Origin: Polytrichum commune
Taxonomy: Eukaryota > Streptophyta > Polytrichopsida > Polytrichales > Polytrichaceae
Direction: 5' to 3'
DNA length: 64,000 bases
Assembly (NCBI GenBank): GCA_950295325.1
Contig: OX485808.1
Location: 684,501 to 748,500 of the forward strand
In this document: in pieces, positions 6,458-43,175 of the stretch
Position numbering within the stretch: the stretch's first letter is position 1
Layout: every line of letters starts with the position of its first letter
Made by a program: the position numbers and the translations under genes
Notes under the pieces: model-generated
The model's database searches: none
The model's input: only the letters and a program-made list of their open reading frames with translations
Told to the model about the DNA's origin: nothing

Positions 6458-6467
6458 GTATTGAACT

Positions 6468-6521
6468 GGACGAGACTTGTATGTGAGCGTAGAGCGGAGA
6501 GCGGAGAGCGTAGATGAAATA
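6468..6521 (+). repeat. Left terminal inverted repeat with GAGAGCG heptamers
   Basis: The terminal GG-start segment is followed by GTATGTGAGCG and then TAGAGCG, GAGAGCG, GAGAGCG, TAGATG. The heptamer register gives a local array that could bind a protein in several copies. It pairs in inverted orientation with 18583-18617. Confidence 0.75.
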
Positions 6522-6968
6522 AAAATAGTAAACTTGCAAGACTAAAATTAGGACATTTCAAAAATATCCAAAAATATAACTAGAATCTTCCAGAATCTTC
6601 CAATAATAGTAAAAAATTGACCTATTTCCGTGGGATGTATAGGTCAAAATTTTAAAAAAATGGCCCTGAATTTGGAATGGTCTCATTAAGTTTGGAAACC
6701 GTGAGGTGGTTGAATTATTAAAACCAAGGATGATCACAAGAAAAAATCAATGAAAATGGATTTTTGGAGATTGGTATAATTGAAGAATGAGTCAATCAAA
6801 ATACAAAGGAATCAAAATAATGAACTTCCTTCATTTTTATTCATCACTTTTCTCTTTGTCTTATATGTGAGTCTAGTCTATAGCTTGGACTTTAGCAATT
6901 ATCGTATGTGGCCGAATAGATTATATATTGGACTCATACCCACATCATTGTATATACACTTGCATACA

Positions 6969-7436
6969 ATGGGTGATGAGAGATATATGTTTGCTGGATT
7001 AGGATGGGAGAAGGAAATTAGGAGTCTAGCAGATCCTCATATTCCGGTTAATTTATCGCCGGAATTTGAGTTTGTTGCTGGAAATCGAAGTAGTGATGAC
7101 TACGACCTGACTCCATTTTTGCAGTCTACACAAGCATGGAGGTGGAGGACGCGGGAGGAGCAAAAACAACGTGAGAAAAAAGAAAAGAGGCAGGAAGATG
7201 TGCCCGAGAAGGACGTTGATTTGGATGAAGACAAATCAAACGAAACGGAGGAGGAGGTGAAGGTTGTAGGGGAATCTTCGAAGTCTCTTTTATTTCGCGA
7301 ACGGATGAGAGCCTTGCCGCCGCATCATCTGCCGTTGAAGGATCGAAAGAGAGATAAGACAGTTTCTTGTATGAATTTGCTCCGACCGGGTCCACCTCCC
7401 TCGGAATCATCCAAGAAGTATGCGAAACGGAAATAG
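6969..7436 (+). CDS. Small charged protein of the MULE (155 aa), unknown function
   Basis: The first in-frame ATG is at 6969 and the stop ends at 7436. I do not recognise a family. The N-terminal third (MGDERYMFAGLGWEKE..) is mixed hydrophobic and polar and ends in SSDDYDLTPFL. The middle is a strongly charged, probably helical segment rich in K, E and R (residues about 55-105, with EEQKQREKKEK and DEDKSNETEEEVKVV). The C-terminus is basic (SSKKYAKRK), possibly a nuclear localisation signal. It sits between the left end of the element and the convergently transcribed transposase gene. Some MULEs carry small accessory genes, but nothing here shows a function. It could also be one exon of a longer gene. 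Confidence 0.5.
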   Translation: MGDERYMFAGLGWEKEIRSLADPHIPVNLSPEFEFVAGNRSSDDYDLTPFLQSTQAWRWRTREEQKQREKKEKRQEDVPEKDVDLDEDKSNETEEEVKVVGESSKSLLFRERMRALPPHHLPLKDRKRDKTVSCMNLLRPGPPPSESSKKYAKRK

Positions 7437-8078
7437 AGTTGATAGACATAGGAAGCATTGTAATACAAAATTTTGAAGTAAATAAAAATAATCATTGAGA
7501 TTATACCTTTATTAAATCAATCAATTATTGCTTCAAATTAGAATGTTCTATGCTCAAAACAATAATTTAACTCCAAGCATGGAAATTGTTGAATATAAAA
7601 CAACCAACTCTCGACCAAAGGTCCTGTTGCATTAAAAGATAATTATGTATGGCTAGCTTTTAGCATATTGCAATGATAGAACAATATTATTTGATTCCTT
7701 TCCTGATCATCAATATCCATGATTCAGGATAGATTGGTTGTTTGAAGGGTCCAAGTGGTGTAATTCTGCTTTATAAAGGGTAAATAAATTGTTAAGGTTC
7801 CACCTTACTACTATTAAACTTCATATTATGTCTCATCACCTAAAGTGTGATCAGCTGTGTAGAAGCATAACCTCGGTCTTGTAAATAATTATTTTCTGCC
7901 TAAGCTGCTAGTAACATGCGGTAGCCGTGCATAGTCTATATAGTCTGAATGACAAAACACTTTTTATTGAAAAAGACAATATGAATATTGTCTTGCTGAC
8001 TTAGTACATGTAATGACAAGGGAATTTTGAGTGGGCACCGTCCATTGAAAAGAATCTAGGATGTTTGTAGGTTGCCTC
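7437..8078. other. Spacer between the two converging MULE genes
   Basis: AT-rich sequence holding the 3' ends of the small ORF (+) and the transposase (-). No ORF or repeat was recognised. Confidence 0.5.
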
Positions 8079-11000
8079 CTAGTTTTTAGCCAAAGGGTGA
8101 GTCAAGAGTCCGCTTTCTAGGACTAGCTTGACCTCGTTGAAGCTAAAGGTAGGCGCGTGAATGAAAAGGTCGGCCTCGGGATCACGGTTGCAAACCTTCA
8201 AAAATATGAAATACACATGCTTGCAATAAGAGAATTGGGTCCTCCCTCGGAACTTGGTCATCGTCTTCTTGAATGCAGGGCAAGTGCAACCCACGAAAGA
8301 GCTGATGGTGACCTGATACTGTGTGATGGCAGGAGAAACACCCGAATCCAACCCGATAATGCAACCATGTCCTGGATGAGGTATCATATTTATGGAACGG
8401 ATGCAAGCTTTCAGAGAGTCGGAGGAGGCCATGGAGAGTCGTTGCGCGGGATTTGGGCGAGTGGCAGTGCGTTTCACAATCTTGCCGTCTCTCTTGCCAG
8501 GATAGCGGTCTGGTTCTGCGGGAACGGGTACCGCGCTTAGATTTGCAGGCGGCGGAGCAGAAGAGAACAAACGTCTTGGAGAGACCGGCTTCTTCAGCGG
8601 GAGCTGGAATCCAGCCGCTTCAAGGGCAAGAATTTTAGTAGGCTTGAGGTTTGTGCCTAGCTTCACCGGCCAAACGTCTGGAATCGGCGGCATTTCATGG
8701 TCTGCTGAGTGCTTAGCAACCCATTTGCGCTTTGTACCCTTCACGCACCGGTCAATGTCATCGGAGCAGAAGAAGAATTCTGTCCTCTCAGATAAATTCA
8801 TGCGTATATTAGTCCAAACTCCGGTGTAGGTAGGCGCGGCGGTCAAATTGGTGCCTCTCACAATTCTCTCAGTACACTTTTTCTTCGTGACAACTCTCTG
8901 GGCCCAGCAGCACTTCGCCGAGGTCTTGGGGAGTCTTGATATGTGCCACTCATTGACGTTAACCTTTGTCTCTTCGACAACACTGACATGACGGATCCCC
9001 CCCTCGTTCGGCGGGGACGCAGGGATGCTCTGAGGCTCAGGCTCATGATGAATATCTTGGACGATCGTATCATCTTCAGTATCTTCAAGAATGATGGGCA
9101 TCTGCACAGGACGAGCCCTCACGGCACGTCTTGAACCTCTTGGATGTGAGAAGTTAACCTTGTCAGGCCGATGAGACTCCTCTTTAGCTCCAAGAGGCAG
9201 ATCTGCCTTCCGCTTCGAGGACCCGAATACCTCTTCTCCAGCCATGCGAGGAACACGGGTACAAAATTCTTCTGCTCTAGGCATGTCCAGCATGGGGTCT
9301 TCAAGAACTAAAGGATTACCTGTTTGCTTCGCCCTGCGCTCTGCCATCCTTAGTTTGAGCTCCTTCTTTGTAGGGCATGTTCCGCCGACGTCACCTTTAA
9401 GGAACTGGTAGTAATTGACAACCTGTAAGAAGCCTCGAACGAAGTCGTCAACTGTAGCAACGTAGAGGTCACCGCCGTTGTTTCCAAACGCTTGAAGCCA
9501 CTTGTTGTGTATTGTTTCAGCTAGGCTACATGAAGGCATTTCTGCTAGTTCTTCTTCTGAAAATTTCTGCGATACATATTGGAAGTAATTAGAGATTACA
9601 GAAGAGTTGCTTGAGATAAGAGCACAGTGAAATTAATGAAAATGAAATGAAATGTATTGGGAAAACATACCCCGGTCATGAAGCCTCCCCATTGGCGATA
9701 ACCGTAGTGCCAAAATGCAAGCCAGAGCTCTAGTTTGTTTAGGGCCTTCTCTGTCACTGCCCCGGCGGATACCCACCATGCACGTAGCCCGTGGTACATA
9801 CTGTCTGCTTCGTCCATGGTCCTCGCCGTCCTATACTGGTGGCACATCTTCTTGTGTTGCTCCCATAATTCTTCGGGAATGTACTTCTCGGTATACTTAA
9901 CCATAGATTGGGTCCAGTGAAATTGACAGGTTCTCTCCCGGTCATCCATGCGGTCCTCCTTCTTCCCGTTGCCATATATGACCCGAACTGCATTCCAATT
10001 GGCCTGGGCGCTGTCGGCCATGAAACCCTTGAAGTTGGTATCGACAACACCATTCCTCTCCATCACAGCATTGAGATTCTTCCAGAAAACGATATGGGCA
10101 TCACAGTCCTCCGATTGCATGTCACAGCTTGCAATGGTCATGACACGACAATACATAGAGTCATACACGTGGCATGCCATTGTGGTCCATTGTCTAACCC
10201 GTTTCACATGGTCGAACATCATCCAAACATTCTCCAGATCTTCGCCGGGCTGCATACGCTTGACCAAGTCTACCCCACTACCAGGCCCGACTTCCGACAT
10301 CTTGAAGACAAAAACCTTATCAAGATCAGCCCCTTGACCAGGGAATTTGTTCTCCTGAACAAAAGCCCATAAACTGATTCCACGGAGTTTGGTGATAGAG
10401 TCCATGACACCATACCTTCTGAGGTATCGGAAGCTCATGACCTTGTTGCGGATGTTTGGGGAAGCCATGTCCTTGCACCGGTCGAATACAGGAACAAGTT
10501 CCTCTAGAGACAGCTTCTTTGGTGGTGCGTCATCGGGTTGAAGAAGATAGTTGCCAATTAGAATTTTGCTAGCCTCCAACACAACTGCACTTTTGGTAGC
10601 CTGAGGAGTCTTCTCGATCTGTTCTTCAATTAGGCCACTGATCTCAGCCTTAGTGTCTCTGTAGTCGCCCACCTTGACAGGGTGATCGTGAGTTCCAATG
10701 TGGATGCACGCTCTTGTGTGGTTGTTTTTGCCAGCAACATAATAAATTTTTGCCCCACATGTAGCAATACATGTTGGGGGTTCTTTACATACCTTGCAAA
10801 CAAGCGTAGAGTCAGGTGGGGGCGCTCGATCCACTACAAAGGCTTGGAGGGTACAACCCTCAAACTCTGTCTCGTTAACTTCGAAAATACGAGGTCGGTG
10901 GATCAAATATTCGCACTCCTTGTTGTTGCAACGCAGGTGTCCAACGCAAGCGGAAGAACGGAAGGACAAACCAAAGTCGTTTGTGATGTTGGTAGTGATG

Positions 11001-11774
11001 GTCTTCGTCCACACATGGCCGTCGTAACGCTTGTCCATTCCCTGCATAGACTTGGCCTGTGACCGTGCGGCCGTGTGACCAACAGGTGGCAACTCGAAGA
11101 TGACAGCACCATCGAACAGAGCAAGAAGGTACTCTACCCTGTCGTGTCTAATGACCGAGTAGTTTATTTTTTTAAGATTTTTTTTTTCCCGGCATTGTTG
11201 CAAGTTGTTTTAATAATGGTACTATGCTAACAGTATCTTGCGACAAAGGATAGACTTTAGGAGCGTCCCCACCAACTTTAACCTGAGGCGGGGGCTTGGT
11301 GGGACTGACCTCGTCATCTGAAGAAAGTGTAATTACAGAATCTACTCTAGAGTTCTCTACAATAGGCGTCTCAAGACCGGGCTCGAGCTTGACCTTCACA
11401 TCACGTGGCATAGGAGTTTGAATGGTGCAGGTAGAGGAAGAGCGAGGAGTGAGGATCTCAGTAGAAGCAACCATATGAGATTCAGTGAGGCCATAGACTC
11501 GGTAACTACCTGGATGAAGAGTCCAAAACATGTTATTGTTCTCATCTCGATGCGAAATGCGACCAAGGGTGTGTGTAAGTTCTGACGTGACAACATCAAA
11601 TATATCCTCGTCAATAACAATAGTGTCCTCACTGAAACCGAACCGACTACTCAAACGTTGGGACGTCACGTAAGCTAGTCCGCTGTCCTCCATCCGAAAG
11701 GTAAGTGAGACTCTCTCTCCATCAGCATAGAGGATTGCCATCCCCACTTCTCCGTTAGCAGGCACATGAGCCAT
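8079..11774 (-). CDS. MULE-like transposase with GCM/WRKY-like zinc and SWIM domains
   Basis: The gene reads leftward. The 5' part is open from an ATG at 11774 to the A-tract at 11178-11187, the second part from there to 9671. A 104-bp intron (9567-9670, GTATGT..GCAG, phase 0) follows, then the last exon, 9566-8079. Domain order: an N-terminal region ending in VITLSSDDE (a SUMO-interaction-like motif); a C/H-rich domain with HLRCNNKECEYL and later C..C, TRACIH and THDHPV, like the GCM/WRKY-type fingers of plant MULE proteins; an RNase-H-like core with HVYDSMYCRVMTIA (first D), FMADSAQANW (second D), CQFHW and an acidic MDEADSMY segment; a linker with a second acidic hydrophobic motif, PIILEDTEDD; and a C-terminal SWIM finger (CTCP..YCKH, about 8205-8295). 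It would bind and cut the element ends in the nucleus. A 10-A run breaks the reading frame between the first and second parts, so this copy is either disabled or frameshifts there. Confidence 0.8.
9567..9670 (-). other. Transposase intron
   Basis: On the minus strand the exon ends ..ATGACCGGG before GTATGT, and the intron ends GCAG before AAATTTTCAG. Joining the two keeps the frame (phase 0) and connects the WGGFMTG and KFSEEELAEM segments smoothly. Confidence 0.8.
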
Positions 11775-12396
11775 GATGAGGGGAATGAGGACTTGCGCGA
11801 TGACGGAAATGTGAAAGAGGTTTCTCAACATTGTGGGATACCCATTTATTAGAAATGCATTGCCAAAGACAACGATGATGGACATGATCCAAATGACGGA
11901 TGATCTATGAAGGAAAGCATGAATGATACTTCTAAATGTGTAACACCTTAAACCAAGGAGTCTGAAAGAGAGCGGTAAGTAGGTCACGATACTCCAAATT
12001 ATATCAGCCAAGTCATGGGAGACATTATACTAGAGAAGATATTATTTGTTTACAAATAATAGAATTCAATAACAGGCATACATACTAAACATGATAGTAG
12101 CTCAGGAATAGAAAATGCCAAACATTAGAATGCAACATTGGTATTAACGACGAATACGCTTCTGGGGCCCAATATCTGACATGGAAGGATTCCATTAATT
12201 ATAAAAGGTTTTAGCGCCGCCTTGTGTTGTGTATTAATGCATTGTGGATTAATAGAGGAATATTTCAAGAAACTGAAGATTACTTTTCCGAATCCAAGGT
12301 GAACGTAATTATCCAAAATGTGAACATAATGATGGCGAATAGATGTTAATTATGACATAGTTGACAATCATATATAAGAACTGGATTGCTTCATTA

Positions 12397-15300
12397 ATGT
12401 CAAAGATGAACACTAGGTCGAGAGCGAGAGCAGATCGAGAAGGTAGAAGGACCATTCAGAAGCAAAGGCGTATTGAGAGAAGGGAAAGGTTAGAATCAAG
12501 AGAGATCCTAGGAACACCATACAACTTGCGGACCACAATGGGTAGAAGAGGGGTTACTTCTTCTAGGGGGACAGGTTGAGGTTCCAAAGGGGAAAAAACG
12601 TTTGATGTTGCAGATGTAGCTCCAGTAGTATTATTTCATGTATCGGAGGAAGACAACGAAGTTGACAAAGTGGGCAGTGAGGTGATGTTTAACGGCAAAC
12701 AAAATGAAAAGTTTTAATTTGCAATCATAATGTTAAATTCTAATTGGCAATGATATCGGGTGCTTTATGTTGTGTTTTATGTTTGGTGGGCGATTGTGAA
12801 TTGAATTTGGTTTGGGTATCTGGAACAGGGAATGACGCAGACACAGGTTCAACCTGAGGCAACCTCCAGTGCCTCAACATCAGATCATACTGAGGAGCAG
12901 GTTTGTAAAGAGTGTTATCAATTGGTGACTTGAGTGGTCTTGGGTTTAGGGTAAGGGTTCTTCAAATTGATAAAACTTTATAAGGCCAACTTCATAGCTA
13001 ATGACCACATGACATATACAATGACAGAAGATTGGCGATTTCGAACAAGGCGCTGATATTGTTGATCTTCGAGAACTAAGCATGGACAATGAAGAACAGC
13101 AATTCGGGGAAGAGGTAAGTTGTCCAAAACAAAAAACCTTGAATTTTTTTTTGGAATAGTGCTCGGAGATTACAGATCTATTACTTTAAGAAGTTAGAAT
13201 CTAGGTCTCGGCCCCAAGATAGACTTTCAAAGGGTCACTGGGCGACACCTATACATGCCGAGGGAGAAATTTCTGGTGAGGGGGAGGGATGACGGTCGAG
13301 GGAGAGGGGGAGGGTTTGGTGGCGTTCTTGGAGATTCGGCCAATGTATGAGGTGAGGATAGTTAAGTGTGTTATGAGTGTAACCTGATATGAGGTGAGTT
13401 TGCAATGTTGGGTATAGGGCAATCTGGATTTCTGAGATTCGAGGGCCGAGTTGAGTGTCTCGGTCCCGAGCCAGATTTTCTGGTATTCAAATCTCGGGAT
13501 TTTTGGTAGAAGTGCAATATGATCTGAGGTCAATCTGGAATCTTAAGAATAAGGGTAACATGATGTAAGCTGGTATGTTTCTGCAATTTCAGGGCCGAGA
13601 TGAGTGTCTCGGTCCCGAGACAGTTTAGCTGGTATTCAAACTATACTGTCACAATCATAGTTGATTTTGATTTCTAGAGATGTTTTATACAATTGTTATC
13701 TGATATGAGGTTATATATGTGGGTCTCTTGTGTAATCTGATATGAGGATATATATGTGGGTGTGAAGTGTAATCTGATATGAGGTTATATATGTGGGTCA
13801 CAAGTGTAATATGATATAGGTTAAGTTAGCAATGTTGGGTAGTAGTGTAATCTGATCAAAGCTAAGTAAGTGAAATGTGATACAATCAGAGTTAGGGTAA
13901 TGTGCTATAAGGTTAGATATTTCTGAAATTCCAGGGCCGAGATGAGTGTCTCGGTCCCGAGACAGATTCGATGGTATTCAAACTATACTGTCACAATCAT
14001 AGTTGATTTTGATATCTAGATATGCTTTATACAAGTGTTATCTGATATGAGGTCTTTTATGTGGGTCTCAAGTGTAATCTGATATGAGGTTATATATGTG
14101 GGTGTGAAGTGTAATCTGATATGAGGTGTTGTGAAGATAATCTGGTATTGGGTTAGATAGGCTTGGTCTAAGGGTAATCTGATATTAAGTTACAATTAAT
14201 GGTACTTGCATTATTGTGCGAAGAGTTAACTTCCTCTCCTTTTCCTACAAGAGATCTTATATTTGGCTTAGTGTTTTGGTTCTTTATATGGCAGCTATAT
14301 TTAATATTGAGCTGTGTCTTTCCCGCAGGTATTTCAAGTACGAGCTCCTTGCAAAAGGAGCAATAACAAAAGAAGATCTCCCTATATTCCTCTCTGCTTG
14401 GCTTGACCGGTCTAACTCCACGTGCATGTTCTCTGCAAATCAACAGCGTACATGGTCCACATCACATCTCACAGGAGGTGGTTGGTACCTTGACTGTGCT
14501 CCTAGTTTCACTCCTTCCTTTGAAACTGAACTTAGGAAATCAAGGGAGGCAGTTGGAGAATCGGGTGTTGAAATGATTGACTTACAGGGCATTGAAGACG
14601 AGCATGAGAGGGCAAAGGCCCTATCCCGTCGTCTAGAAGAGGATAGGAGGAAGGCGCTTAGAGTAAAGGAAGCAGAGGAGAAAGCGGCACAGAAAGAGAT
14701 GGAAAAACTTCAAAAGTCTCTAGAGAAGACTACCATGAAGGGGAAAAAGAAGATGAACCCCCATTATGAGCCAGAAGGTAAAACTATTGTTTCCCCAACC
14801 CCCACTACTGATTCAGGATCACAAGCTCATACTTTTTCCCGAGGTACAAAACGGGATTCATCATACGACCAGTTGAGTCCAGTTTTTAATTTGGGAGAGG
14901 ATAACGATAGCAACATTGACGAGCTCATTCTCAATGCGTCCATGAACGAAGTCCTTGGCAGTAGCTCTGATGACTACACCTCTTATTACAAGGACTTGAA
15001 AAGCTTCATGATTAAGGTATTCTTCTTTTGCCTCTTACGCCAACATTATCGTTGTAACCTTATAATTGATTAGTCTGACATAAGGTTAATCTGATATAAA
15101 GCTATAAGTGTAATCTGATGTAAGGCTATATTTGAGTGCAATAAGGACAATCTGATATATGGATAGATAGGCTTCATACATGACTAATCTGATGTGATGG
15201 ATATGCTTATGATAAGTTTTAATATGTTCTAAGGCTATATTTTATGAGGTTATATATGTGTGTAATAGGTGTTATCTGATATCGGGTTAGTTTGCAATGT

Positions 15301-17732
15301 TGGGTATTATGGTAATATGATATCAGGTTAGTTTGCAATGTTGGGTATTAGGGTAATCTGATATACGCTTACTTAGTGACATCTGATATAATCTTAGTTA
15401 GTGTAGTCTGATATAAGCTTAATTATTTTAATTTGATATAAGCTTACTTACTTAAATCTGTTATAAGTTTAGTTAGTGTCGAGTTTCGGTGTCTCTTCCC
15501 GAGCCATATTTTATAGTTTTAGATTTGGTGGTATTGGATTATCAGCTATTTAATTTTCTGGTATTCAAACTCTACTGTTTAATATAAGTGTAATATGATA
15601 TGAGGTTACATATGTGGGTCACACGTGTAATCTGATATATGGTTAGTTAGCATTGTTGGGTATAAGGGTAATGAGATGAAAGATTAGAAGTTTCTGAAAT
15701 TCCAGGGCCGAGTTTGAGTTTCTCGGTCCCGAGACAGATTTTCTGGTATTCAACCTCTACTGTCACAATCATAGTTCATATTGATATCTAGATGTACTTG
15801 ATACAAGTGTAATCTGATATGAGGTTATATATGTGGGTCACAAGAGTAATCTGATATGAGGTTATATATGTGGGTCACAAGAGTAATCTGATATGAGGTT
15901 ACATATGTGGGTCACAAGTGTAATCTGATATATGGTTAGTTAGCAATGTTGGGTATAAGGGTAATAAGATGAAAGATTGTTAGAAATTTCTGAAATTATA
16001 AGTGTAATTGGAATTGAGGTTAGACCTGTGTGTTAGTGAATTCTGATATAAGCTTAGGTTAAATTGAGTGTTATCAAGATAATCTGGTACAAGGTTAGAT
16101 AGGCTTCATATAAGGGTAATCTGATATAAGGTTAGATTGGCTACCTATTAGGCTAATCTGAACTTTGATGTAATAGGTTACTCTGATATAAGGTTACATA
16201 TGTTCTTTTATGGGTAATCCCATATAAAGTTGGTTTGAACTGTAAGGTAATAGGTTATTCTGATATAAGGTTACATAGGTTTCTTATATGGTTAGTTTGT
16301 GTGTTTTAAGGCTAATCTGATGTAAGGTTAGTTTGTGTGTTTTATGGTTAGATATGTTTGTCCATTTGAAAGCCCATATTTATGTGGAGATGTACTAATT
16401 TCTGGGTGTGCTTGTTTATTGAACAACATTCCAAAAACAAAGTTCGATTCTACAAGGGGACTACCGGTGTCCAGCCCTGTCTGGACTTCATACTTGCAGA
16501 TATCCTAGAGGGCTTGCCCGTTCCGGGGATATCCAACCCACCAATGTCGATTCCTGCCTGGAATCAAAAGACTCACGAGTGGCTTCAGCCAATCTTTGAT
16601 TTTGCCGATAACCACTTGCATGATGACGGGGCCATCATTTTATTTCACCTTTTTCGAATGACTACAAAAGCCATCATTCTTGGATATTGTGAGTGTTTCG
16701 ATTTTCAAGTTCGGAAGGAGTGGTGGGGTATGAACCGCCTTCATCTGACGTCCCCGATTAATCAGAGTGTCACTGTAAGTTCATTCACTAATTTAATTTA
16801 CTCTTCATTTTTTGTGAAATTTTAAATCTTTGTTTAACACGAATGCTACATATTGATTTCATCATATTTTTTGTTCATTGTTCTCAGTTCACTTATTTTG
16901 GACCATGGCAGACTATGCGTTTCGGGATTACATTGGTCGTGAGGACCATGCCTGGCAAACCTGCTTCCAAATTCTCATTTCAGCCCGTTCCCGCTCTTGA
17001 CCGACACGGGGTAGATGTATCAAGAGATGATATTCTACAGAACCTCGTCTCTTGTGAGGATCAGCTCATGAATGGACCCACCCCGTGGCGTGGTCCAAGA
17101 GAGAAGTCTACTCTTTTAATGCAGATGTTAATTCAGAGTTGTACCTCCCTTGGGGATGTTGTTTTAGACTGCACTGCTGCTACGGGTATGTTGATTCAAT
17201 CTGCCAACTCACACCTAAACTATTCCCTGTTATTTCCAGAGAAATCACACTAATTTTGTTGTCATTCTTTTTATTGTAGGATCTTCCATCCATGTGTGCC
17301 GCAACGTCGAGCGTCACATTGTGGCATTAGAGGCTGATGAGGCCATTTTCCATGCCGTACTACAACCCTTGATTCGTTCGACTGTTACCCCTGAGGTCAT
17401 TTATGTAGCAACGGCAAGTACTGAAGACCCGGAGGGCGATGTACTTGTGGTCCCGAGAATTGTGAAGAAGTCTCGATTCAGTAAGTGAGTTTGTTGAACA
17501 TTTTCTCATACATTTTTTTAACTTTTGAGCGTCGTTGTGATTAATATGGATTCCTAACCATGGTGCTTTTGGAATTTGCAGATTTGGACCAATGAGCTAT
17601 CCTAGTCACCGCCCTTTCTTTTGTGACCCTACGTTTTATCCAAGTCCTCCAAAGACTTGGGAACTCCCTTCCTACACAAATGACACTGCAATTGAACTAG
17701 CTAGTGGAGTTTATCGTACTATTATTCCTTAA
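12397..17732 (+). CDS. Permuted amino-methyltransferase-like protein, multi-exon
   Basis: Exons inferred from GT/AG sites with matching phase: 12829-12900, 13028-13114, about 14339-15016, 16373-16774, 16888-17185, 17280-17484, 17582-17732 (stop TAA). An RS-rich 5' exon may start at ATG 12397, but its join is unresolved. The joined exons from 12829 on encode about 630 residues. The 14339-15016 exon gives a helical domain, a charged coiled coil (EEDRRKALRVKEAEEKA..) and an acidic tail. The exon at 16373 gives LDFILADILEGLP, IPAWNQKTHEWL, DDGAIILFH and KEWWGMNRLHL. The next gives NGPTPWRGPREKS and GDVVLDCTAATG. The 17280 exon gives CRNVERHIVALEADEAIF. The order of target-recognition half first and SAM-binding FxGxG-like motif last matches beta-class (permuted) N4/N6 amino-methyltransferases. 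The catalytic (D/S/N)PP(Y/F) motif is replaced by ADIL, so activity is doubtful. The fold is inferred from motifs only. Confidence 0.6.
13115..14338 (+). repeat. Satellite-like repeats filling an intron of the methyltransferase-like gene
   Basis: The intron is built from two interleaved units. One is a short unit around GTAATCTGATATGAGGTTA with TATATGTGGGTCACAAGT, repeated many times. The other is a longer unit containing GGGCCGAGATGAGTGTCTC and GGTCCCGAGACAGATT, then TGGTATTCAAACTATACTG, at about 13440, 13590 and 13930. Copies are diverged and some are partial. Confidence 0.85.
15017..16372 (+). repeat. Second intron made of the same repeat family
   Basis: The same CTGATAT(A/G)AGGTTA-type units occur dozens of times, with the CTCGGTCCCGAG-type longer unit at about 15480 and 15705. 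Near 15795-15950 the unit GTAATCTGATATGAGGTTA with TGTGGGTCACAAG runs almost perfectly in tandem with about 47-bp spacing. Confidence 0.85.
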
Positions 17733-18586
17733 TCTTATCCAGGTAGATGTATTGAGTTCTGTGATATTGAAGCTCTAGAGTCTGATCGTGAAGACTCCTC
17801 GAATGGGAGCTGAGTTTTTCATTCTATTGACTATCATTGTTGGAAACATGGCATTCAAATGTCTTTACTAATATCTCTGCATGAGTATGTTCAACAATGA
17901 TATGAGGTGCACATCTATATTACACAATGGTCTACAAACACAACTTTGAATAGGATCATACTATACAACTGAAATTCTAGAGGTGAAATCGGTAAAGTAC
18001 ACTGCCAATGTTTGCTAATCCGGGTGGTAACTTAGATATCTGCACATTGGTCATACGGTTGAATTTGTGTTTGTTTGGGTATGCTATGTGTTTAATTTGA
18101 TTTCTAGGCTTATGATTTAGTGGCCCTTAGGCAGGTTAGGTTAGGGTGGCAGATTATACATGAAGGGCAACCTGGAATGGGGTGCCGTTGCAGGCACCCC
18201 CCTGCAATGATTTTTTTTCATTGAGTTTATTGGTCAAAAGGCAAAATCCTTGTTTGTTTGGGTAGGCTAAGTGTTTAACTTCACACTTATAGAGGGTGTA
18301 ATGTATGTGGAGAAATTTTATTAAGAGACCTCCTTCGTGTTTACTTCAAATAGTACATGTTTTTAATTTACAGTAATATGTACTATAGTATACGTGTTTG
18401 GATATTGAACTGGTGACATCATACTGATGTAAGCCCTAATGTTGTATTTTATTAAAATGTTGGCCTATTTCCATGGTAATAGACTACCTAACCATTAAAA
18501 TTTTCTAAAAATAGTTAGATGTTTTTCATTCATTCCCGCGGATATAGGTGCATTTTTCCTCTCATTTCATGTCTCAAATCGAGTTC
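17733..18586. other. 3' flank of the methyltransferase-like gene inside the MULE
   Basis: No ORF was recognised. A short hairpin, GGGGTGCC..GGCACCCCC, lies at about 18179-18201. The stretch leads into the right terminal repeat. Confidence 0.45.
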
Positions 18587-18617
18587 TCCGCTCTCCGCTC
18601 GCATACTAACTTTCCCC
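18587..18617 (-). repeat. Right terminal inverted repeat of the MULE
   Basis: Read on the minus strand it begins GGGGAAAG and then has GTATGCGAGCG followed by GAGAGCGGAGA, the inverted partner of 6468-6507. The 10-bp duplication GTATTGAACT follows directly at 18618-18627. Confidence 0.75.
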
Positions 18618-18627
18618 GTATTGAACT

Positions 18628-19420: not shown

Positions 19421-21952
19421 ATGGCAGCCACCGTCCCAGTTCAGGCGCTTGCACTCGTAAACATTCCCAGAAGACTTCAACAAGTGATGGCAAAAAATCG
19501 AGGCAACTTGGAGAAAGCTGGGATATGGGAATTCGTGTTGTGGGTTTGTGATGTGGAGAAAGTAGTGCACGAAGACAAAGTTGCCAATTTTGTCCATACA
19601 TATCAACTCAAGACTAAAACGGCACTAGTAGGTGCAGCAACAGTGGATTTCTCCACTACCAAGATTTCTGTAGCTTTCAGCTTACCCAACCGAGGTTTTT
19701 CCGTGGACGCTTTACCGGAGATGAAGAAACAAGAGGCAGAAAAAATCTTTGAGTACAAATTCCGGTGGGGGAAAGACATGAGGTGGGGGATTGGATTGGC
19801 GAGACACCACTGGAAAATGTGGTTCGATTTTGTCAATAATTATCTGCTGTTCCGACCAGACGAGGGGAAAATGGACCACAAATATGTGCTCGCAGCCATC
19901 CGAACTTGGGAAGGAGTAGAAGTCAATTGGGCCTTCACAGTACAATAACGAATGAACGAGGAGATACAGGTTCGAAAGGCTCAAAGTCCACCGAAATTGT
20001 ACCTCTATTCAGCATTCTATATTTCATGCTTGTGCGACCCTAAGGTACAGCAAGGGGACCTAACACCACCAAGAGCCTCATCTGCTCCTACCCCCGTGTC
20101 CCCTGCCTCACAAACCTCGGAAGAAAATGAAGCACTTCGAGCAATGACAGTTCGGAAGGTCACCGAGCTACAGAGACAGGTGGGCACTCTACAAGGTAAA
20201 GTGGATTTCACTCGAGAAAAAAATGCAGAGTTGTTGCATCAAGTTAACCAGTTGCTGCAAGAGAAGTTGGTTGACCAACGTCAAATTACCGAGTTACAGG
20301 TGCAGAATGCCGACCTCAAGCTTCAGTTGACCGAGCTGAGGCAAGATCATAGTCGTATGCAGGCGGAGGGAATGGCGAGGAGTCCACCAAAGCCGACCAT
20401 GGTCGAAAAATCATGTAACACCATGGACTCTAACCCCCCAGGTCCCTCAACGGCGACGACCCCCCTTCCCATTGCTGAAACTTTGGTGCCAAACAAGGCT
20501 TTATCAGTTGATGTTTGTACCAGGCTTTGGGATATAGAAAGTCGGATTGCTCTTAATTTTAACCTCCATCAGCTTTATGAGATTCAACGAGACTTGATGT
20601 TGACCATGGTCGGGTTGGAGTTACGAGAGGTCATGGATAGGGAAAAGTTCAAAGGGCTATGGGAATTTTGTTCCAAGTTTAAGGTAGAAAACTTGCTGGT
20701 AGAAATCCTAGCCCGCAAGCACCTGAAGTTGTCAGATCCTTTTCATGCTTTTGTCGTTATGGGCGACATTGGGGGTAGAATTTTCCTATACTATGCGGGT
20801 TGTGAGGAAAAGCTACTTCAACGTCGGGGGTTAAGAAGACAGATTGAGGAGAGAGTTGTGGATTGGACAGACTATAGTACAGTCATATATCAACAATTTT
20901 ACCATCCGGAGCGACAGATCATAGCCCAGTGGAGAGCCAGTTTGGAAGTAGTTTTACCATTAGTCAGGCACGAGGATTACTTCACAATGGTTTTGACTTG
21001 TAGTCTTAAACGAGTCTACAATTCAGACAACTTGGATGACTTCACCGCAACGCATTATGTGTATAATAGGGAGAAGGCCATCGATAGGATAGAAAAATAT
21101 TTGAAGGCTATCGATGGCAAGAAAGCGCCGGTGTTGGCAGTTGAGGCTCAGGTGGAATTTTCCATGGCTCCTCCGGGCTACTGTCCAAGGTATGTACCGT
21201 TCATAGCCATGCCAGTGGGGGGATCGACTGCAAACCAACGTTATCTCGGTAATTACAGAGAATTGTTTGATGCCGAGGGAGAACAACCCGTGCCGACTTG
21301 GCCTGCTTTGGGGTGGATATTGGAAGACTATGGTCTATCAAGGACGGAGACTGTAGCGGCTGACCTGGTATACAAGCGGACTAGCGGAGCATGGTCATTT
21401 GAGCCACCCCCTACTGTCTAGTTGCACCCTCAATTTTGTCCGTGTCCACGTCCCCATAAGTGGGCACCTGATTCGACAATAGCCTCTGTGGAGTACAACT
21501 GGCCGCAAATTCAGGGAGCGCCCGGTTTCAACAGTCCGGGGCAATGCAAGGTTGCTTACATGCGATATTTTGAGGAACATCGAACTCACAAGGATCCCGT
21601 GTGTTTCAGAGCTGCGGTATTTTGTGCCGCTTTGGGTGAGTGGTGCCACCGCTGGAATTTTGCTATTAATATTAATTGCCATCAGAAATCCAGGCAAGAG
21701 TTCTTGATGCTGCTAAAATTGCAGTATAGACCTTCCAGATGGGTTCGACTGGTTGAGGCTATGGCTATGACCCATTTTATTGAAGGGGTCCATCCTAGCC
21801 TCATCAACGAGTTTCCTTGTACAAGAGCGGGGCCATTTGAACGATTTTTGAAGTGGCAGCGTCAAAACAACCCAGAAGGTGTAGCACAGGATGAGGACTT
21901 ACAACGTGCCCTCCTCCGATTGGACGGGAAGGATGCCAAACAACGTCCATGA
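19421..21952 (+). pseudogene. Long ORF with two in-frame stops, plant-transposon-like N-terminus
   Basis: One frame stays open from ATG 19421 to TGA 21952 (844 codons) apart from TAA at 19946-19948 and TAG at 21419-21421. Residues about 1-210 resemble the putative plant transposon protein domain, with the spaced pattern WGIGLARHHW..FVNNYLLF..HKYVLAAIRTWEGVEVNW..YLYSAFYISCLC. The first stop falls inside this domain, which continues beyond it. Then come a Ser/Pro linker, a coiled coil (LQRQVGTLQGKV.. to LTELRQDHSRM, about residues 240-310) and a large unrecognised C-terminal region. The domain continuing across the first stop suggests nonsense mutations or readthrough rather than three genes. 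No transposase or RT lies beside it. The family assignment is from pattern memory, so moderate at best. Confidence 0.55.
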
Positions 21953-30299: not shown

Positions 30300-32280
30300 C
30301 AACCATGGATGCTGCAGAGAATGAAATGTCCCAGTGCTTGAAATAGGGCAGACGAGTGCGAGAGTTGTGTATGTGGATGGGTAAGGACTTCTGAAGTATG
30401 TGGAGCGACAACTCGGCAGAGGTGACCATTTTAACGATGTGGCAAGGACGTTGGGATTGGGAAGAAATGTTCTTAGGAGGAGGTTGCAGGAACTGGGATG
30501 GAGGGGGGTTTATGATACACCCAGTGTGGCCACAGGAGACGTCATAGCAGCCATTCACAGCGAAGTTCCAGTTATGCGAGCTGGAGTGAACTGGGGCATC
30601 TGTAGGGTTCAGTGCAGACTTCGATTGTCAGGACTGAGGGTCGGCAGACAGGTGGTCCCGGGATGCTTTGAATATAATGCACCCTGAACATATGGAGCGG
30701 CGTCAACTCGGCCGGCTGAGAAGGGGGCAGTACACCATCACGAAGCCCATGATCCTATGGCACATGGACTGTAAGACAATCTTGATTTCTATTTTTGTCC
30801 TTTATTGTTAACCTTGCACTTGAGGTTGTTGCGAGCGTTCATTCACTGTTCCTGTGTGCAGCATATGACAAGTTGGCCAAGTGGGGAATCAAAATTCACG
30901 CGGGCATAGATGGAGGGACACATTTTGTGTTGTGGGCTCGCGCTGCAATGGATAAACGACAAACTACCATATACGACGCGTATGCTGATGCCGTTCGCCG
31001 ATTTGGCCGTCCCCTCCGAGTAAGGTCTGACTTTGCGGCAGAGCATAACATGGTGGAGGCGGATATGAGGAGGGGTCGGCCCAACATATTCCGGCCATTT
31101 CTACGTGGCTCCTCTGTGCACAACCAGCGGATCGAACATTTCTGGAGGCAAGTTTGGACGCATTTGATTTTTTACTATAAACATTTGTTGACACTAATGG
31201 GCCGCCATGGTTTCATAAACCTGGTTAACCCCGTTCAGAGGGCGTCCATGGAGGCTGTATTCCTCCCGGCCATCCAGCAAGACTTGGCAAACTTTGTGGC
31301 GACATGGAACGTCCACAGGGTGCGGAAAATCAACCAAAATGGGCGGGACTTGGCGGGGCATGTACCTGATTGCATGTTCTAGTCATGGGAGCGTGAAGTA
31401 GGGTGAGTTGGTGCATTACTTGGACCTGTTTCTTGCTATTTTCATTACTATTTTGGAGGTATTCGTTGTTAATGGGGGGTTTGACCATATGAGTGTTGAA
31501 TTGGGTGTCACACCATCGGAAGGTGGGAGGCCATTAAATAATTGCAGCCATTTCTTCGCTCCAAACTCAACATTACAACCAACATGTTGGTCTACGACAT
31601 TGCTGACATGCATGCGTGTACATGAATTCACAGGCTTGTGTCACCACCATCCGTGGATGATGATCCTTGGAACATGGAAGATTGGGGCCACGATGACTTG
31701 AACTTGAATAGGAGACCTTACGCACCCGACCCGCCGCAACCCACTCCCTTGTTAGCCCAGGTCCAATTCTCCACTCATGGCGTATAGGATGTCGCCCTGG
31801 GGGATAAGTGTATTGAATCATATGTGATACATGGGTGACTTCCAGTATTTCAAGAGAACGTTGTGAGGAGTTTTGACAGTGCTGGCATAGTTACGTCAAT
31901 GGGACATTTGAGCCAATTCTGATATACACGAGTGGCAATGGAGATTTTACGATACATGTGGACTACGCCTCGGGCGATGTTGTGTCATCGTGTTGAATGT
32001 CGTGCTTGCGCCGTCCATGTGCCTACAGGATGTTGGGGACGTTCGTGACGCTGCATACATGCTTGGCGCTGCAGGCATGCGTGGGAACTTGCAGAGAATG
32101 TACAATCTGCACGTAGCCCTGACATATGAGTGTTTGCATTATGCTGATGAGGGTGCACCCGATCTGTTTTCCCACTGTGACATGGTAATGAATCGAGAAG
32201 CATTACCAGCAGACAGACTAACAACATGCAGACTTCTACAAGCTGCTCTCCAAGGGAGGGATTCTTCCCTCAGTGGATAA
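30300..32280 (+). pseudogene. IS3/IS481-like DDE transposase (eukaryotic integrase-core family), broken
   Basis: The 5' part (about 30400-30655) gives a helix-turn-helix-like segment (VARTLGLGRNVLRRRLQELG). A one-base frame change near 30655 leads into MHPEHMERRQLG..ILWHMD, up to a GT donor at about 30769. The next exon starts after an AG at about 30859 and runs to the stop at 31382. It carries HAGIDGGTHFVLW (first D), RVRSDFAAEH (second D) and VHNQRIEHFWRQVW (E), the DDE core of the integrase-core family found in animals and fungi and related to bacterial IS3/IS481. Acidic segments at about 31628-31760 and a segment at 32026-32280 could be further exons. It would be a cut-and-paste transposase. 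I could not find its terminal repeats. The frame change makes it a likely pseudogene. Confidence 0.7.
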
Positions 32281-36202: not shown

Positions 36203-36998
36203 TTGTATTCCATAGGCAACCCCTCGGAGCTAAGGATTAGTACTACTCTTGTAGCGAACAATCTCCCGCAACGAGAGTCCCAATCAACCATCACCAAACA
36301 TCTCAAGAAGCTCATTGGAGAAGACAATGTCACCGGAGTCACTTTCGGGTACCAAAACAAACAAGACGACGATAGGCAAGCTGGATGGTGCCACATTCAA
36401 TGCTTAAACGCCGCCGTCTACACCGAATGGTTGCACAAGTCTTCGTATATCTTCGGAAGGAGAGTGGACTTTGTCCCACACAAAGGTAGCATAGATGGCT
36501 CCGACCCTAACCCCACCGCCATTCGCCTCGCACACGCACCGGTACGAGAAGTCATCGCTCAAAAGGCTCAAGCCATGAGCAACCATGCCGCCGCCTCCCC
36601 CTTAGCTCTTCAACAAAGCCATGAAGGACCTCACCGAAACAATGGACGTTAAACTCAACACAATCGCCAACAACATCAACCACAACACGGACACACGAAT
36701 CGAGGCATCCACGAAAACACTCAAAACACATGCGGCCAACATCCACAACATCATGAGTGCAATGGCCATAGAGTTTCAACAATCGAACCATCGCATCCAC
36801 AACATCATGCAAACACTCGCCGCCACCCTCCCGGACCCCCCTCCCCCTCAAGTCAACACCGCAAGACTTCCTCACATACCACATCATCCCATGGACGACA
36901 CCAACGCGGCACAACTAGCACCCCCGGGATTCCATAGTACCCACTACCGGAACTCCCCATCAAGTTACCACAAAGGCCCAAACTCCCAAAATGAATAG
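36203..36998 (+). CDS. LINE ORF1: RRM-like plus coiled-coil, frame-changed
   Basis: The first part (36203-36652) looks like a small RNA-binding fold: STTLVANNLPQRE, then GWCHIQCLNAAVYTEWL and FGRRVDFVPHKGSIDG, the spacing of an RRM-type ORF1p domain. It is followed in another frame (36621-36998) by a helical, Asn- and Ile-rich segment with heptad-like spacing (MDVKLNTIANNINHNT..IHNIMSAMAIEFQQ) and a proline-rich tail. The two parts most likely formed one ORF1 protein (RNA-binding trimer-type), split by a one-base change near 36600-36650. Its stop codon overlaps the ORF2 start (ATGAATAG at 36991-36998), an arrangement that allows termination-reinitiation. No ATG for the first part is certain. 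Confidence 0.6.
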
Positions 36999-39804
36999 CA
37001 ACCCATTAGCATACACATGGACGCTAGCTACATACTATATATGTTTTCTATTACTTATCAATAAAAAGTGCACACGCACTAAGCAATTCAATATCACTCT
37101 TATCCATGTTATTATAGCCCCACTACTATGTGCTCATTTCACCACCTTAACCCCCCACGCTACTCCCACATCATCCCACAATACAATAAACAACCCATAC
37201 CAAGTACACTCTATTACCACCCTACACCATAACCATACTCACTCATACAACTACTCACACAACATAACACTCACAATAATTAAAACACCCACACACACAC
37301 TTTTATATAATACCATCCCAAACTCACACAAAACAACACCTCAAAAAGAAGAGCTATTTTACACACTAAAAGAAACACTAAAAACCCACATATCAGGCAC
37401 ATCCACCCCATCCATACTAAACTCACATACACCTCCACTACCTCACACCACCCCACCATTAAAACATCATCACATTGGATATAGCCACATAAACCGCCAC
37501 AACATTACTTTAGTCAACTTCTACACAATAAGACATACACACTTAAAACGCCCAACATTACACAAAACCTTTGCACAAATTGTTGACCTCCAAACACTCA
37601 TCCTAAGAAGTGGAGACATACAACTCAACCCGGGCCCACTTTCATACATCTATAAAAATCCCCTTATAAAAAACACACAAGAAACAAAACAATACTCTAT
37701 TAAAAACCCACCCGTATTCCAATATGCCCAACTAGTAAGCCTCTCGCCCATACACTTACCACAACACCCCCTTAATCCCATCAAATTAGGCCAAAGCCAT
37801 TCACACCACAAACCAACCGCCCCAAAACCCTTACACCCAAACTCACAATATAACACCATAATTATACATAGACATATAACTATCATATGGGCACTACCCT
37901 ACTTACTCCAAATTCAACCACCACCCGTCATACAATCACATAACAAGAAACCTCAATTAAGCATAAGCACACAACACCGCAATCAAAACCATCTCCTCCT
38001 ACAATGTGGAGATATACACCCTAACCCAGGACCTATGCCTAATCTATTACAAAAACACCCCCCGGCTCACAAAAGACGTCAACATACATATTTCCTACCT
38101 AGTACGATCAAATTCCACCGAGAATACCAACACTTGGCCGAAACATTTAAACCCCTTTTCCAAAACACACATCCGCTACATACACAAATAATACACTCCC
38201 TCCCATACTTGTATAATCACATACAACAATATAATCACCATCCTCCCCCAAGGGTCATCTATGCAATAGTCGTAACCATTAGTCCCTCCACTCTAACATG
38301 TAACACACTCCTACAACACCAACCAATACAAGAATGGACATCTCAACTACTAAAAAGAATGTCAAGATTGCAAAACCCACCAGAAAGACACATAGATACC
38401 CCACACCCATATACACAATTCTGTCATATATATAAAGATACTATCACCCCTCCCAATACAATACACAAACAATTCTATGATTATATACATCTAGACCATA
38501 ACTCCGTTAATATAGAAAAATTCCCATATCTACCAAGACAACTACTAATGGAGGCACTAAGATATAACGAACCTATAAATGAATACACACGTCCCAACCC
38601 CCCCATTACTTATCATTCATCACCCTCGCCCAACCCGGTCCCGCTAACTAGTCAAGAATCATACGCCATAACCTGGAATGCCTCCTCATTAAACACTGTC
38701 ATGCCATGTCTACAAGAACTAATCACGGACCCCCAACAACCCCCATCAATCATCACCATTCAAGAAACCAAGCTTTCCGCCACTAAATCCACAAAATATA
38801 CACAACATATATTCCCTCAATACAAACTTTTCTTTAACAACACACACAACATCACAAGAATCACACGCCAACAAATGACATACAGAGGATATAAAGGAGG
38901 ACTACTACTACTAATACACAACAAACATGCATTTCCATGCAATCTTTCCAAAATTCCCACCCCCGCAAACATATCCCCATTCCTCCAAGTAACGCGCATA
39001 GCAAACCAACCTTTACAACCATGGCTCTTAATTAATTTATATATGCCCTCGCATGAGGAGGACCTACCTCTCATCCCCATTATACAAACTAACATCACTC
39101 ATCAAATAAATACACACCCTAATCACGTATACATCCTATGTGGAGATTTTAATAGAGATGTTGTTTTGATTGGAAGACAAAACGACCAACAAACCACACC
39201 GCCACAACCGGAAGATTACCTTTGGCGATCCTTTACAACCAACCTAGAACTAACCTACATCCCGACAAACACAACATTTTCAAGGCAAGGAGGACATAAT
39301 TACACACAAAATAGCCTAATAGATGGATTTTACATCAAAACCCCACATAACCACCAATTCACCTCAACTACAAATCAAACAACACACCTAAACTCCGATC
39401 ATCTACCTATACAACTCCGAATACCTCCAAACACACTTATAGCAAGAGAACCAATCACAACCCCCGACCCACCACCTAGGATATTCAACCCTATACCCAA
39501 GGAAAACCTAGAAACCTTCCACACCAAATTCTTCGAGGACAACTCAAACCAAATCGACGAGCTCATACAATTGTTAGAAAATAACCACTTGACAAATGAA
39601 CAATGGCAACTAGCATGTCAATCACTAAGTTCCCTCACCGACATCATTACAACCACCGTCCTAGAAACATGTAGTGCCCACCCATTCCCACGCTATCAAA
39701 CAAAATTGCTAAGCAAGGAGGCTACCTCCCAAAGAAACTTCAAAAAGAATGGAAAATACATCTATCTACCTACCATCTTATTAGAAAAACAATATATATC
39801 ATAA
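36991..39804 (+). CDS. LINE ORF2, 5' part: 2A-like motifs and AP endonuclease
   Basis: 937 residues from ATG 36991. Residues 1-50 are hydrophobic. Two 2A-like motifs follow: RSGDIQLNPGP (G208-P216) and CGDIHPNPGP (G340-P348). The apurinic endonuclease spans about 555-815: TWNASSLN (N563), IQETK (E592), INLYMPS, CGDFNRD (D719), SLIDGFY (D778) and NSDHLPI (H804). These are the expected metal-binding and catalytic residues, so the nicking domain looks intact. Past residue about 918 this frame reads out into a non-homologous tail (IYLPTILLEKQYIS). The proper continuation is in the -1 frame from about 39747. The protein would nick the genomic target and prime reverse transcription. Confidence 0.88.
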   Translation: MNSNPLAYTWTLATYYICFLLLINKKCTRTKQFNITLIHVIIAPLLCAHFTTLTPHATPTSSHNTINNPYQVHSITTLHHNHTHSYNYSHNITLTIIKTPTHTLLYNTIPNSHKTTPQKEELFYTLKETLKTHISGTSTPSILNSHTPPLPHTTPPLKHHHIGYSHINRHNITLVNFYTIRHTHLKRPTLHKTFAQIVDLQTLILRSGDIQLNPGPLSYIYKNPLIKNTQETKQYSIKNPPVFQYAQLVSLSPIHLPQHPLNPIKLGQSHSHHKPTAPKPLHPNSQYNTIIIHRHITIIWALPYLLQIQPPPVIQSHNKKPQLSISTQHRNQNHLLLQCGDIHPNPGPMPNLLQKHPPAHKRRQHTYFLPSTIKFHREYQHLAETFKPLFQNTHPLHTQIIHSLPYLYNHIQQYNHHPPPRVIYAIVVTISPSTLTCNTLLQHQPIQEWTSQLLKRMSRLQNPPERHIDTPHPYTQFCHIYKDTITPPNTIHKQFYDYIHLDHNSVNIEKFPYLPRQLLMEALRYNEPINEYTRPNPPITYHSSPSPNPVPLTSQESYAITWNASSLNTVMPCLQELITDPQQPPSIITIQETKLSATKSTKYTQHIFPQYKLFFNNTHNITRITRQQMTYRGYKGGLLLLIHNKHAFPCNLSKIPTPANISPFLQVTRIANQPLQPWLLINLYMPSHEEDLPLIPIIQTNITHQINTHPNHVYILCGDFNRDVVLIGRQNDQQTTPPQPEDYLWRSFTTNLELTYIPTNTTFSRQGGHNYTQNSLIDGFYIKTPHNHQFTSTTNQTTHLNSDHLPIQLRIPPNTLIAREPITTPDPPPRIFNPIPKENLETFHTKFFEDNSNQIDELIQLLENNHLTNEQWQLACQSLSSLTDIITTTVLETCSAHPFPRYQTKLLSKEATSQRNFKKNGKYIYLPTILLEKQYIS
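37612..37638 (+). other. 2A-like ribosome-skipping motif 1
   Basis: It encodes GDIQLNPGP (ORF2 residues 208-216), preceded by a leucine-rich stretch (VDLQTLILRS). The 2A consensus is D(V/I)ExNPGP; here the E is Q. Whether it separates peptides is untested. Confidence 0.7.
38008..38034 (+). other. 2A-like ribosome-skipping motif 2
   Basis: It encodes GDIHPNPGP (residues 340-348) after NHLLLQC. The same variant, GDIHPNPGP, sits just before the endonuclease in several animal LINE families. The E of the consensus is H here. It lies 132 residues after motif 1. Confidence 0.75.
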
Positions 39805-42800: not shown

Positions 42801-43175
42801 TCCTTTGAAAAAGAAGTGGCATGGTTGTATCAAAGATACAAATATAGAATGCCCAAAAACGACCCCCTCAAACTCTCACAATACACCCTCCCCAATGCCA
42901 TCATAGAAAACATCATTGACTCCTTCCACATCACCCATTCCTACTTCTCATCACCAATCACATGTCCTACTACATTGAAACAATTCTCCTCCCCATTTTC
43001 TAGGGACAAGGTATTCGGGTCAATAGGCACAGCATTCCAACATAAATGGGCAGGGGTGGGATATGCCCACCCGCACACAGAAAAAGACACTCAACAAGCC
43101 CTACATTGGGCTAGACTTGCCGCCAAACATAACCCAGACACAATCACAATACTCATAACAACTGACCCAAACTAG
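39747..43175 (+). pseudogene. LINE ORF2, middle: reverse transcriptase, one internal stop
   Basis: The -1 frame relative to the endonuclease is open from 39747 (EWKIHLSTYHLIRK..) except TGA at 40074-40076, then open to TAG at 43173-43175. RT motifs in order: GKMPGPDQIPN; NHRPIALANTIYKL; DSQEGFRAERCTARQL; ILYIDFKNAFGSIDH (first catalytic D); QRGTIQGDTLSPYLF; AAYADDLAV (catalytic DD); then the thumb and a Cys/His-rich patch (CKPPCHNQCPNTC). All RT core residues are present. The reader passes from endonuclease to RT at C-AAA-AAG (39741-39747), which could be a -1 slip site or a deletion. The TGA and TAG both fit TGG codons changed by G to A. Confidence 0.85.

Follow-up and report, generated by a model that had tools for sequence, protein, structure and literature searches.

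A 64,000-nucleotide stretch of the Polytrichum commune genome (assembly GCA_950295325.1, contig OX485808.1, positions 684,501 to 748,500 of the forward strand; hereafter the window) contains a transposon of 12,150 bp at positions 6468-18617. It belongs to a family of Mutator-superfamily DNA transposons that are large, with 12-42 kb between their ends and nested insertions in some. The family shares one layout: 10-bp target-site duplications, short inverted ends, a small charged open reading frame (ORF1), a divergent DDE-type transposase and a multi-exon cargo gene near the right end. The cargo gene is predicted to end in a beta-class amino-methyltransferase fold in which motif IV comes before motif I. 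Its linkage to the element recurs in the copies read, and its motif IV is altered. As far as our searches reach, the combination of a Mutator-type element with a beta-class methyltransferase-fold cargo is new. The best single mechanism for this cargo is that of an accessory DNA-targeting, anti-silencing factor on a methyltransferase scaffold, similar to VANC of Arabidopsis, and we consider it close to probable, though short of it.

The element lies between two exact copies of the 10-bp sequence GTATTGAACT (6458-6467 and 18618-18627). At their spacing of 12,160 the window offers 51,830 position pairs, and no other pair has identical 10-mers. The left terminus (6468-6513, plus strand) starts with GG and continues with GTATGTGAGCG and then AGAGCG heptamers, and the right terminus (18572-18617, minus strand) is inverted relative to it. 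The ends read GGACGAGACTTGTATGTGAGCGTAGAGCGGAGAGCG on the left and GGGGAAAGTTAGTATGCGAGCGGAGAGCGGAGAAC on the other strand at the right, a short imperfect inverted similarity of about 35 bp that recurs at the ends of other copies, as terminal inverted repeats (TIRs) of a Mutator-like element (MULE) do. An earlier reading of the letters alone (the sequence-only reading) had described such a direct repeat and inverted, heptamer-rich GG-start termini, enclosing a transposase gene divergent from a methyltransferase-like gene, and a small charged open reading frame; all of these are real. It had also suggested a search for other copies with matching ends. In the assembly searched (407.8 Mb in 64 contigs, seven of which hold nearly all bases and presumably represent seven chromosomes), the left 1 kb of the element was found at 39 other scored places with 89-97% identity (40 of 465 candidates scored); some of these alignments begin 3-38 bases inside the element, and not all reach its first base. 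The right 1 kb recurs as well (40 of 1,755 candidates scored).

Ten of the 39 other left-end places and seven right-end places, one of them picked for its methyltransferase 3′ exon, were read, followed by more of one locus and two small stretches. The reading covers C7a up to a gap of about 11 kb in its middle and C2c up to one of about 17 kb; the left-end copies C3a, C4a, C2b and C4c are covered short of their far ends and are not delimited. Eight elements have both ends and a duplication: the window copy, C4b (TAGTATGTTG), C7a (GCCAGAGGTC/GCCAAAGGTC, one mismatch), C7b (ATCAAAATAG), C3b (TATGGGCGTT), C2a (ATATCTAGAT), C5a (GTACCACATG) and C2c (AAACTCAAGG). The duplication is 10 bp in all eight, which fits the 8-11 bp range of MULEs (PMC6446971; this and the other papers cited were available in part, and statements about them refer to those parts). 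The right terminus of C2a and C5a differs from that of the other delimited copies.

The methyltransferase-like gene is inside seven of the eight delimited copies, near the right end. The expectation that this gene and the transposase always occur together between matching ends and 10-bp duplications was borne out to that extent and broken by C5a, which keeps exons of a GNHR type (described below) and shows no methyltransferase match up to its right end, which lies at about 14.4 kb. A second weak match to the GNHR gene and the methyltransferase lies past that end. In the copies read, the two genes were not found at unlinked places, and the termini recurred. Transposase matches are present in nine of the ten left-end copies; in C4a the one match is weak and wrongly oriented. 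At the right-end places, the methyltransferase was found in C4b, C7a, C2c and C3c. The C3c locus is composite: its two GNHR/methyltransferase gene sets diverge from each other, and one is matched in its upstream exons only. At the right-end place C2d, a rearrangement has put methyltransferase 3′ exons alongside a piece of transposase in inverted orientation. Seventeen places from the right-end search match only within query bases 1-339, the part seen at C2d, and are perhaps an amplified rearranged derivative.

The methyltransferase-like gene of the window copy spans 14.3-17.7 kb on the plus strand in several exons. An upstream exon at 14329-15015 encodes YFKYELL and WYLDC stretches and a charged linker; its splice ends were set by eye, and further upstream exons are uncertain. 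The exon at 16442-16774, whose 5′ edge is uncertain, carries LADILEG (at about 16.48 kb) in the position expected for DPPY. The next exon (16888-17185) encodes WRGPREK and the motif I sequence VLDCTAATG. It is followed by an exon with the SSIHVCRNVERHIVALEADE region (17280-17484) and by the last exon (17582-17734, coding 17582-17731 plus stop). A profile search, also suggested by the sequence-only reading, agrees with the permuted amino-methyltransferase motif order proposed there, as the window protein scores 34.2 bits for PF01555 (N6_N4_Mtase), above the cutoff of 26.7. The best-matching stretch is the motif I side. The C7b protein, with its splicing corrected, scores 34.3 bits. The window protein also matches DpnA (E 3.3e-5), a profile of the cargo family aligns with CcrM residues 33-259 (E 2.1e-7), and DNA methyltransferase families of PHROG are matched by both the window type (best E 6.8e-7) and C7b (1.2e-12). 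The permuted motif order and the motif I side are shared with CcrM and DpnA, which differ in being bacterial.

The closest named relative of the cargo is P0001 from the moss Ceratodon purpureus, with 60% identity over 66% of the query. The right gene of C7b has nine exons with GT-AG borders and encodes 980 amino acids without a stop, incomplete at both ends. With this 980-residue query, which includes the GNHR and methyltransferase parts, nothing was found at E 1e-3 among 7,993 scored candidates, which were all similar in length. A search of viral and prokaryote contigs for relatives of the methyltransferase was also negative; it used two short patterns for each, taken from an alignment of two sequences, and is a weak test.

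The catalytic motif of beta-class enzymes has the consensus [DNS]PP[YFW], and its aromatic residue stacks on the flipped base. None of the ten cargo sequences compared (eight genomic copies plus P0003 and P0004) has this motif. All ten read [DE]-x-[PL]-[ED] at the DPPY place: DILE in the window copy, DIPE in C4b, C7a, C7b, C3b and C2a, EYPD in C2c and C3c, DMPE in P0003 and DQPE in P0004. In the profile alignment, the family D-I-P-E stands under the D-P-P-Y of CcrM, so the moss proteins carry an acidic residue in place of the CcrM tyrosine, and the aromatic residue is replaced by an acidic one in every sequence. Motif I, the candidate SAM-binding motif, reads DCTAATG, DWKAGTG (DWKAGIG in C2a) or DLSAGTG, all of which align with the DPFxGxG type; in the window type one of its glycines is alanine. 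Loss of ordinary catalysis by the cargo protein is likely from these substitutions.

The altered motif IV in all ten sequences rules out a standard Dam-like cargo whose active site is of the usual kind. It is unlikely, though conceivable, that the protein is nonetheless an active enzyme whose remodelled site methylates the amino groups of adenine or cytosine in the element DNA, marking or protecting the element, a role that the literature discusses for retrotransposon methyltransferases. The profile match, the motif order and a motif I side like that of CcrM and DpnA would all fit an enzyme, as would the fact that the PF01555 match is best on that same side. However, the replacement of the aromatic residue in ten of ten sequences and of a motif I glycine in the window type speak against catalysis.

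The transposase gene is read from the minus strand. Its main exon (9671-11209) encodes a possible zinc-finger N-terminal part and a catalytic RNase H core with the conserved residues D333 and D399 (exon numbering), and its 3′ exon (8079-9566) ends in a SWIM finger below threshold. Mutator-type transposases have an N-terminal finger of the WRKY-GCM type. Spliced, the two exons (8079-11209) give 1,008 amino acids without internal stops. An upstream coding part at 11172-12029, also on the minus strand, is in a different frame from the main exon in the window copy and continuous with it in C7b. The window copy is thus a poor type specimen of the family, with its interrupted transposase frame and its lack of the GNHR exon.

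We infer an RNase H-type DDE core with a Mutator-group fold from structure prediction. The predicted core is closest to ISCth4, a bacterial insertion sequence that we take to belong to the IS256/Mutator group, with Foldseek TM-scores of only 0.25 and 0.34 and 9% identity in that alignment. A eukaryotic MULE transposase is absent among the structure matches listed, which is uninformative either way. The MULE-like core of the sequence-only reading is in line with this fold. A MULE model of Pfam was reached by none of the 35 sequences scanned (the window exon and 34 of 86 relatives), and the SWIM finger scores 17.3 bits, below its cutoff of 19.6. One of the 35 matches Transposase_mut weakly (E 0.18). 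The only named relative among the matches listed is from the liverwort Riccia, with 27% identity over 14% of the query. In the two comparisons that span the greatest distance among those made, the ratio of nonsynonymous to synonymous substitution rates (dN/dS) is 0.14 and 0.15, values that argue for selection on the transposase. ORF1 (6969-7436, plus strand) encodes a charged protein of 155 amino acids, with an extra stop in some copies. Its dN/dS against the window copy is 0.53-0.99 in seven comparisons, with no clear constraint.

The cargo protein occurs in three subfamilies at the same place near the right end, about 26-46% identical to one another. The window type is 41-46% identical to the C7b type and 26-38% identical to the C2c/C3c type. 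In the methyltransferase part, 107 of 261 amino acids are identical between the window copy and C7b, and the proportions of differences at synonymous and nonsynonymous sites are 0.73, which is saturated, and 0.41. The right genes of C7b and C2a have a dN/dS of 0.35 and no stop in 865 aligned codons. The methyltransferase of the window copy compared with those of C4b and C7a also shows no stops, in 546 and 545 codons. With three subfamilies at one and the same place, the cargo looks old and maintained.

The ends and the left genes have a different history. The two copies C2b and C4c are 93-94% identical to the window copy in the left end and 88-90% in ORF1, and only 54-65% in the transposase. 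Left ends and ORF1 remain about 90% identical even where the right halves share no long DNA match except in the last few hundred bases. Seven of the nine transposases read are 91-96% identical. From these identities, different lineages have apparently exchanged their ends and their cargo.

MURB-type accessory proteins are the model for a second alternative, in which the cargo helps end binding or assembly with the transposase and has no role in silencing. Linkage of the gene to the element in seven of eight delimited copies would suit such a transposition cofactor, as would selection on the transposase. On the other hand, the right-hand proteins diverge to 26-46% identity, whereas the left ends and most transposases stay alike; the cargo is therefore not obviously tuned to the ends, and we think this role improbable.

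It is more doubtful still that the cargo is a captured passenger, an old host or prokaryotic gene that is now functionless, as in Pack-MULEs. Recent copies with dN/dS of 0.6-1.1, partial decay in the window copy and in C2a, and one copy without the gene are all compatible with a passenger. The same position in three deep subfamilies, saturated synonymous sites with limited protein change and the nine exons of C7b without stops are not what a functionless gene would be expected to leave. Finally, the transposon-rich setting and the composite C3c locus might suggest that the window element is two adjoining insertions whose outer ends match by chance, a reading that is almost certainly wrong, since seven more elements have the two ends and are each flanked by a 10-bp duplication of their own.

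C7b, C3b, C2a, C5a and C3c carry an additional upstream exon with a GNHR motif (EGNHR in C7b, C3b and C5a, DGNHR in both C3c versions, KGNHR in C2a). Three divergent versions of the exon are 41-42% identical to the first. No match to it was found in the window copy or in the fully read C4b, and the exon has no significant sequence match in Pfam, PHROG or the Protein Data Bank (PDB). We take the [DE]GNHR motif to resemble motifs of the ParB/sulfiredoxin type, a likeness that no library supports. An origin of the cargo from a phage-type fusion of ParB and methyltransferase stays a lead, because the exon lacks profile support.

Returning to the view of the cargo as a DNA-targeting, anti-silencing factor, indirect support comes from the noncoding part of its gene. 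Several tandem-repeat arrays occupy 13690-16161 on the plus strand. Their units of 24, 25 and 37 bp have the core AATCTGATA(T) in common, and the unit of 41 bp has the variant AATATGATAT. Duplication of one unit does not by itself seem to explain a common core in units of different length. The motif ATCTGATAT has 18 exact sites between 13698 and 16119, all on the plus strand and within introns of the methyltransferase-like gene, and no site in the exons examined or anywhere in the window's other 51,850 bases. Under a first-order Markov model 0.285 sites would be expected, and the maximum in 200 runs is 2. Sister copies are also rich in the motif, with 32 sites in C4b and 41 plus 20 in the parts read of C7a. 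It is absent from C7b, C3b, C2a and C5a, four complete copies that belong to another subfamily, and from the 7 kb read of C2c. The C3c locus has two sites only and large arrays of its own, AGGCCTGAA and TGTGATTAG, with 41 to 0 and 38 to 1 sites by orientation. Noncoding arrays of one orientation, private to a subfamily, are thus found in the window subfamily and at the C3c locus.

This layout recalls the VANDAL elements of Arabidopsis with their VANC/VANB genes. Both are Mutator-superfamily elements with a transposase and accessory genes, the accessory protein differing between families (PMC5735166). VANC21 sites have the same orientation, occur at high density and form tandem repeats in introns and upstream regions (PMC5735166). 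Dense, short, same-oriented motifs in tandem, in noncoding DNA including introns and enriched in one family, are shared with VANDAL elements (PMC5735166). For the window subfamily, the two layouts agree closely. VANDAL elements differ in having non-TIR ends (PMC6446971), whereas the moss element has short inverted repeats. VANC binds its motif and removes methylation. The moss accessory protein is predicted to have a beta-class amino-methyltransferase fold, so that a likeness to VANC would be one of function on another scaffold.

In the VANC-like mechanism that we prefer, the methyltransferase-fold protein would no longer methylate DNA in the ordinary way. It would act as a DNA-targeting factor for a short motif in the noncoding part of its own subfamily, with the AATCTGATAT repeat as the candidate target in the window subfamily, and would keep copies of that subfamily accessible for transcription and transposition. 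From one subfamily to the next, the protein would have changed in step with its motif array. A more specific version is an independently arisen moss system in which a pseudo-methyltransferase, fused in several copies to a GNHR domain, binds the intron arrays of its own gene and co-evolves with them by subfamily; this version is possible but rather doubtful. The sequence-only reading had proposed that the cargo marks or protects the element's DNA or counters silencing. Marking or protecting by methylation is the weaker half of that proposal, given that no copy read has an unaltered catalytic motif, while the silencing half gains indirect support from the subfamily-specific, same-orientation arrays.

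Several observations weigh against the VANC-like mechanism or the cargo behind it. First, the arrays of C7b and C3b are only modest, and C2a and C5a have no notable ones. The units of any tandem repeat point the same way, and a repeat may be confined to one subfamily even if no protein targets it. Second, the methyltransferases of close copies have dN/dS values of 1.10 (C4b) and 0.61 (C7a), which give no support, though they are expected for drift after insertion; such values say only that single copies drift. Third, exon 4 and the greater part of exon 3 are missing from the right gene of C2a, C5a has either jumped or persisted with no methyltransferase exons, and the right ends C4d and C5b show no methyltransferase match within 7 kb. 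Finally, a provisional, faulty splice of C7b scored 18.9 bits for PF01555, below the cutoff that the corrected splice passes.

On the more specific version, a DNA-modifying enzyme would have been turned into a DNA-reading shield against modification. If the mechanism is true, systems of a protein and private intron arrays set against host silencing have evolved more than once in Mutator elements, on different scaffolds and in distant land-plant lineages. The family would also offer a ready-made set of methyltransferase-fold proteins that all depart from the usual catalytic motif, so that it becomes directly testable whether methyltransferases borne by transposons write marks on DNA or only read it.

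There are several precedents for methyltransferase genes in transposable elements, so the kind is known and the moss combination is new as far as the searches reach. Long interspersed nuclear elements (LINEs) and DIRS elements of dinoflagellates and charophytes are also selfish elements with a gene of the DNA methyltransferase type; they differ in that theirs are C5-cytosine enzymes in retrotransposons, and the moss protein has a predicted amino-methyltransferase fold in a cut-and-paste element (PMC5890265). DIRS elements with a Dam-like adenine methyltransferase (cited in PMC5890265) share the amino-methyltransferase class but are retrotransposons with a reverse transcriptase and a tyrosine recombinase. 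Neither of these two enzymes has a Pfam match in six open reading frames of the moss element or its two spliced proteins. Viral Mariner elements with a methyltransferase and an endonuclease are likewise DNA transposons that combine a transposase with a methyltransferase gene, but they belong to another superfamily, have other methyltransferases (Methyltransf_26, C5) and come from viral records (PMC3627910). No moss MULE with a methyltransferase-type gene was found in the literature searched, which covered few subscription papers. The words "methyltransferase" and "moss" do not occur in the available main text of a survey of Mutator elements (PMC6446971) or in the available text of a 2026 review of gene capture (PMC13317346).

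The rest of the window holds other mobile DNA. Just right of the element, three adjoining frames of 175, 490 and 176 amino acids (19421-21952, plus strand) have no Pfam match at E 0.01. A LINE-like element at 36919-45049 (plus strand) contains a reverse-transcriptase frame at 40077-43175, the end of which scores above the cutoff for PF12237, PCIF1_WW (E 3.6e-9), the family of the mRNA-cap methyltransferase PCIF1. By this match, it is possibly a second transposable element of the window with a methyltransferase-related domain; a search of the literature, in the portions available, gave nothing relevant on such an element. An integrase core (Pfam rva_4, E 1.9e-36) lies at 30786-31382 on the plus strand. 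A Ty3-type polyprotein at 47691-53951 on the minus strand is uninterrupted over 2,086 amino acids and matches gag, protease, reverse transcriptase, RNase H and integrase.

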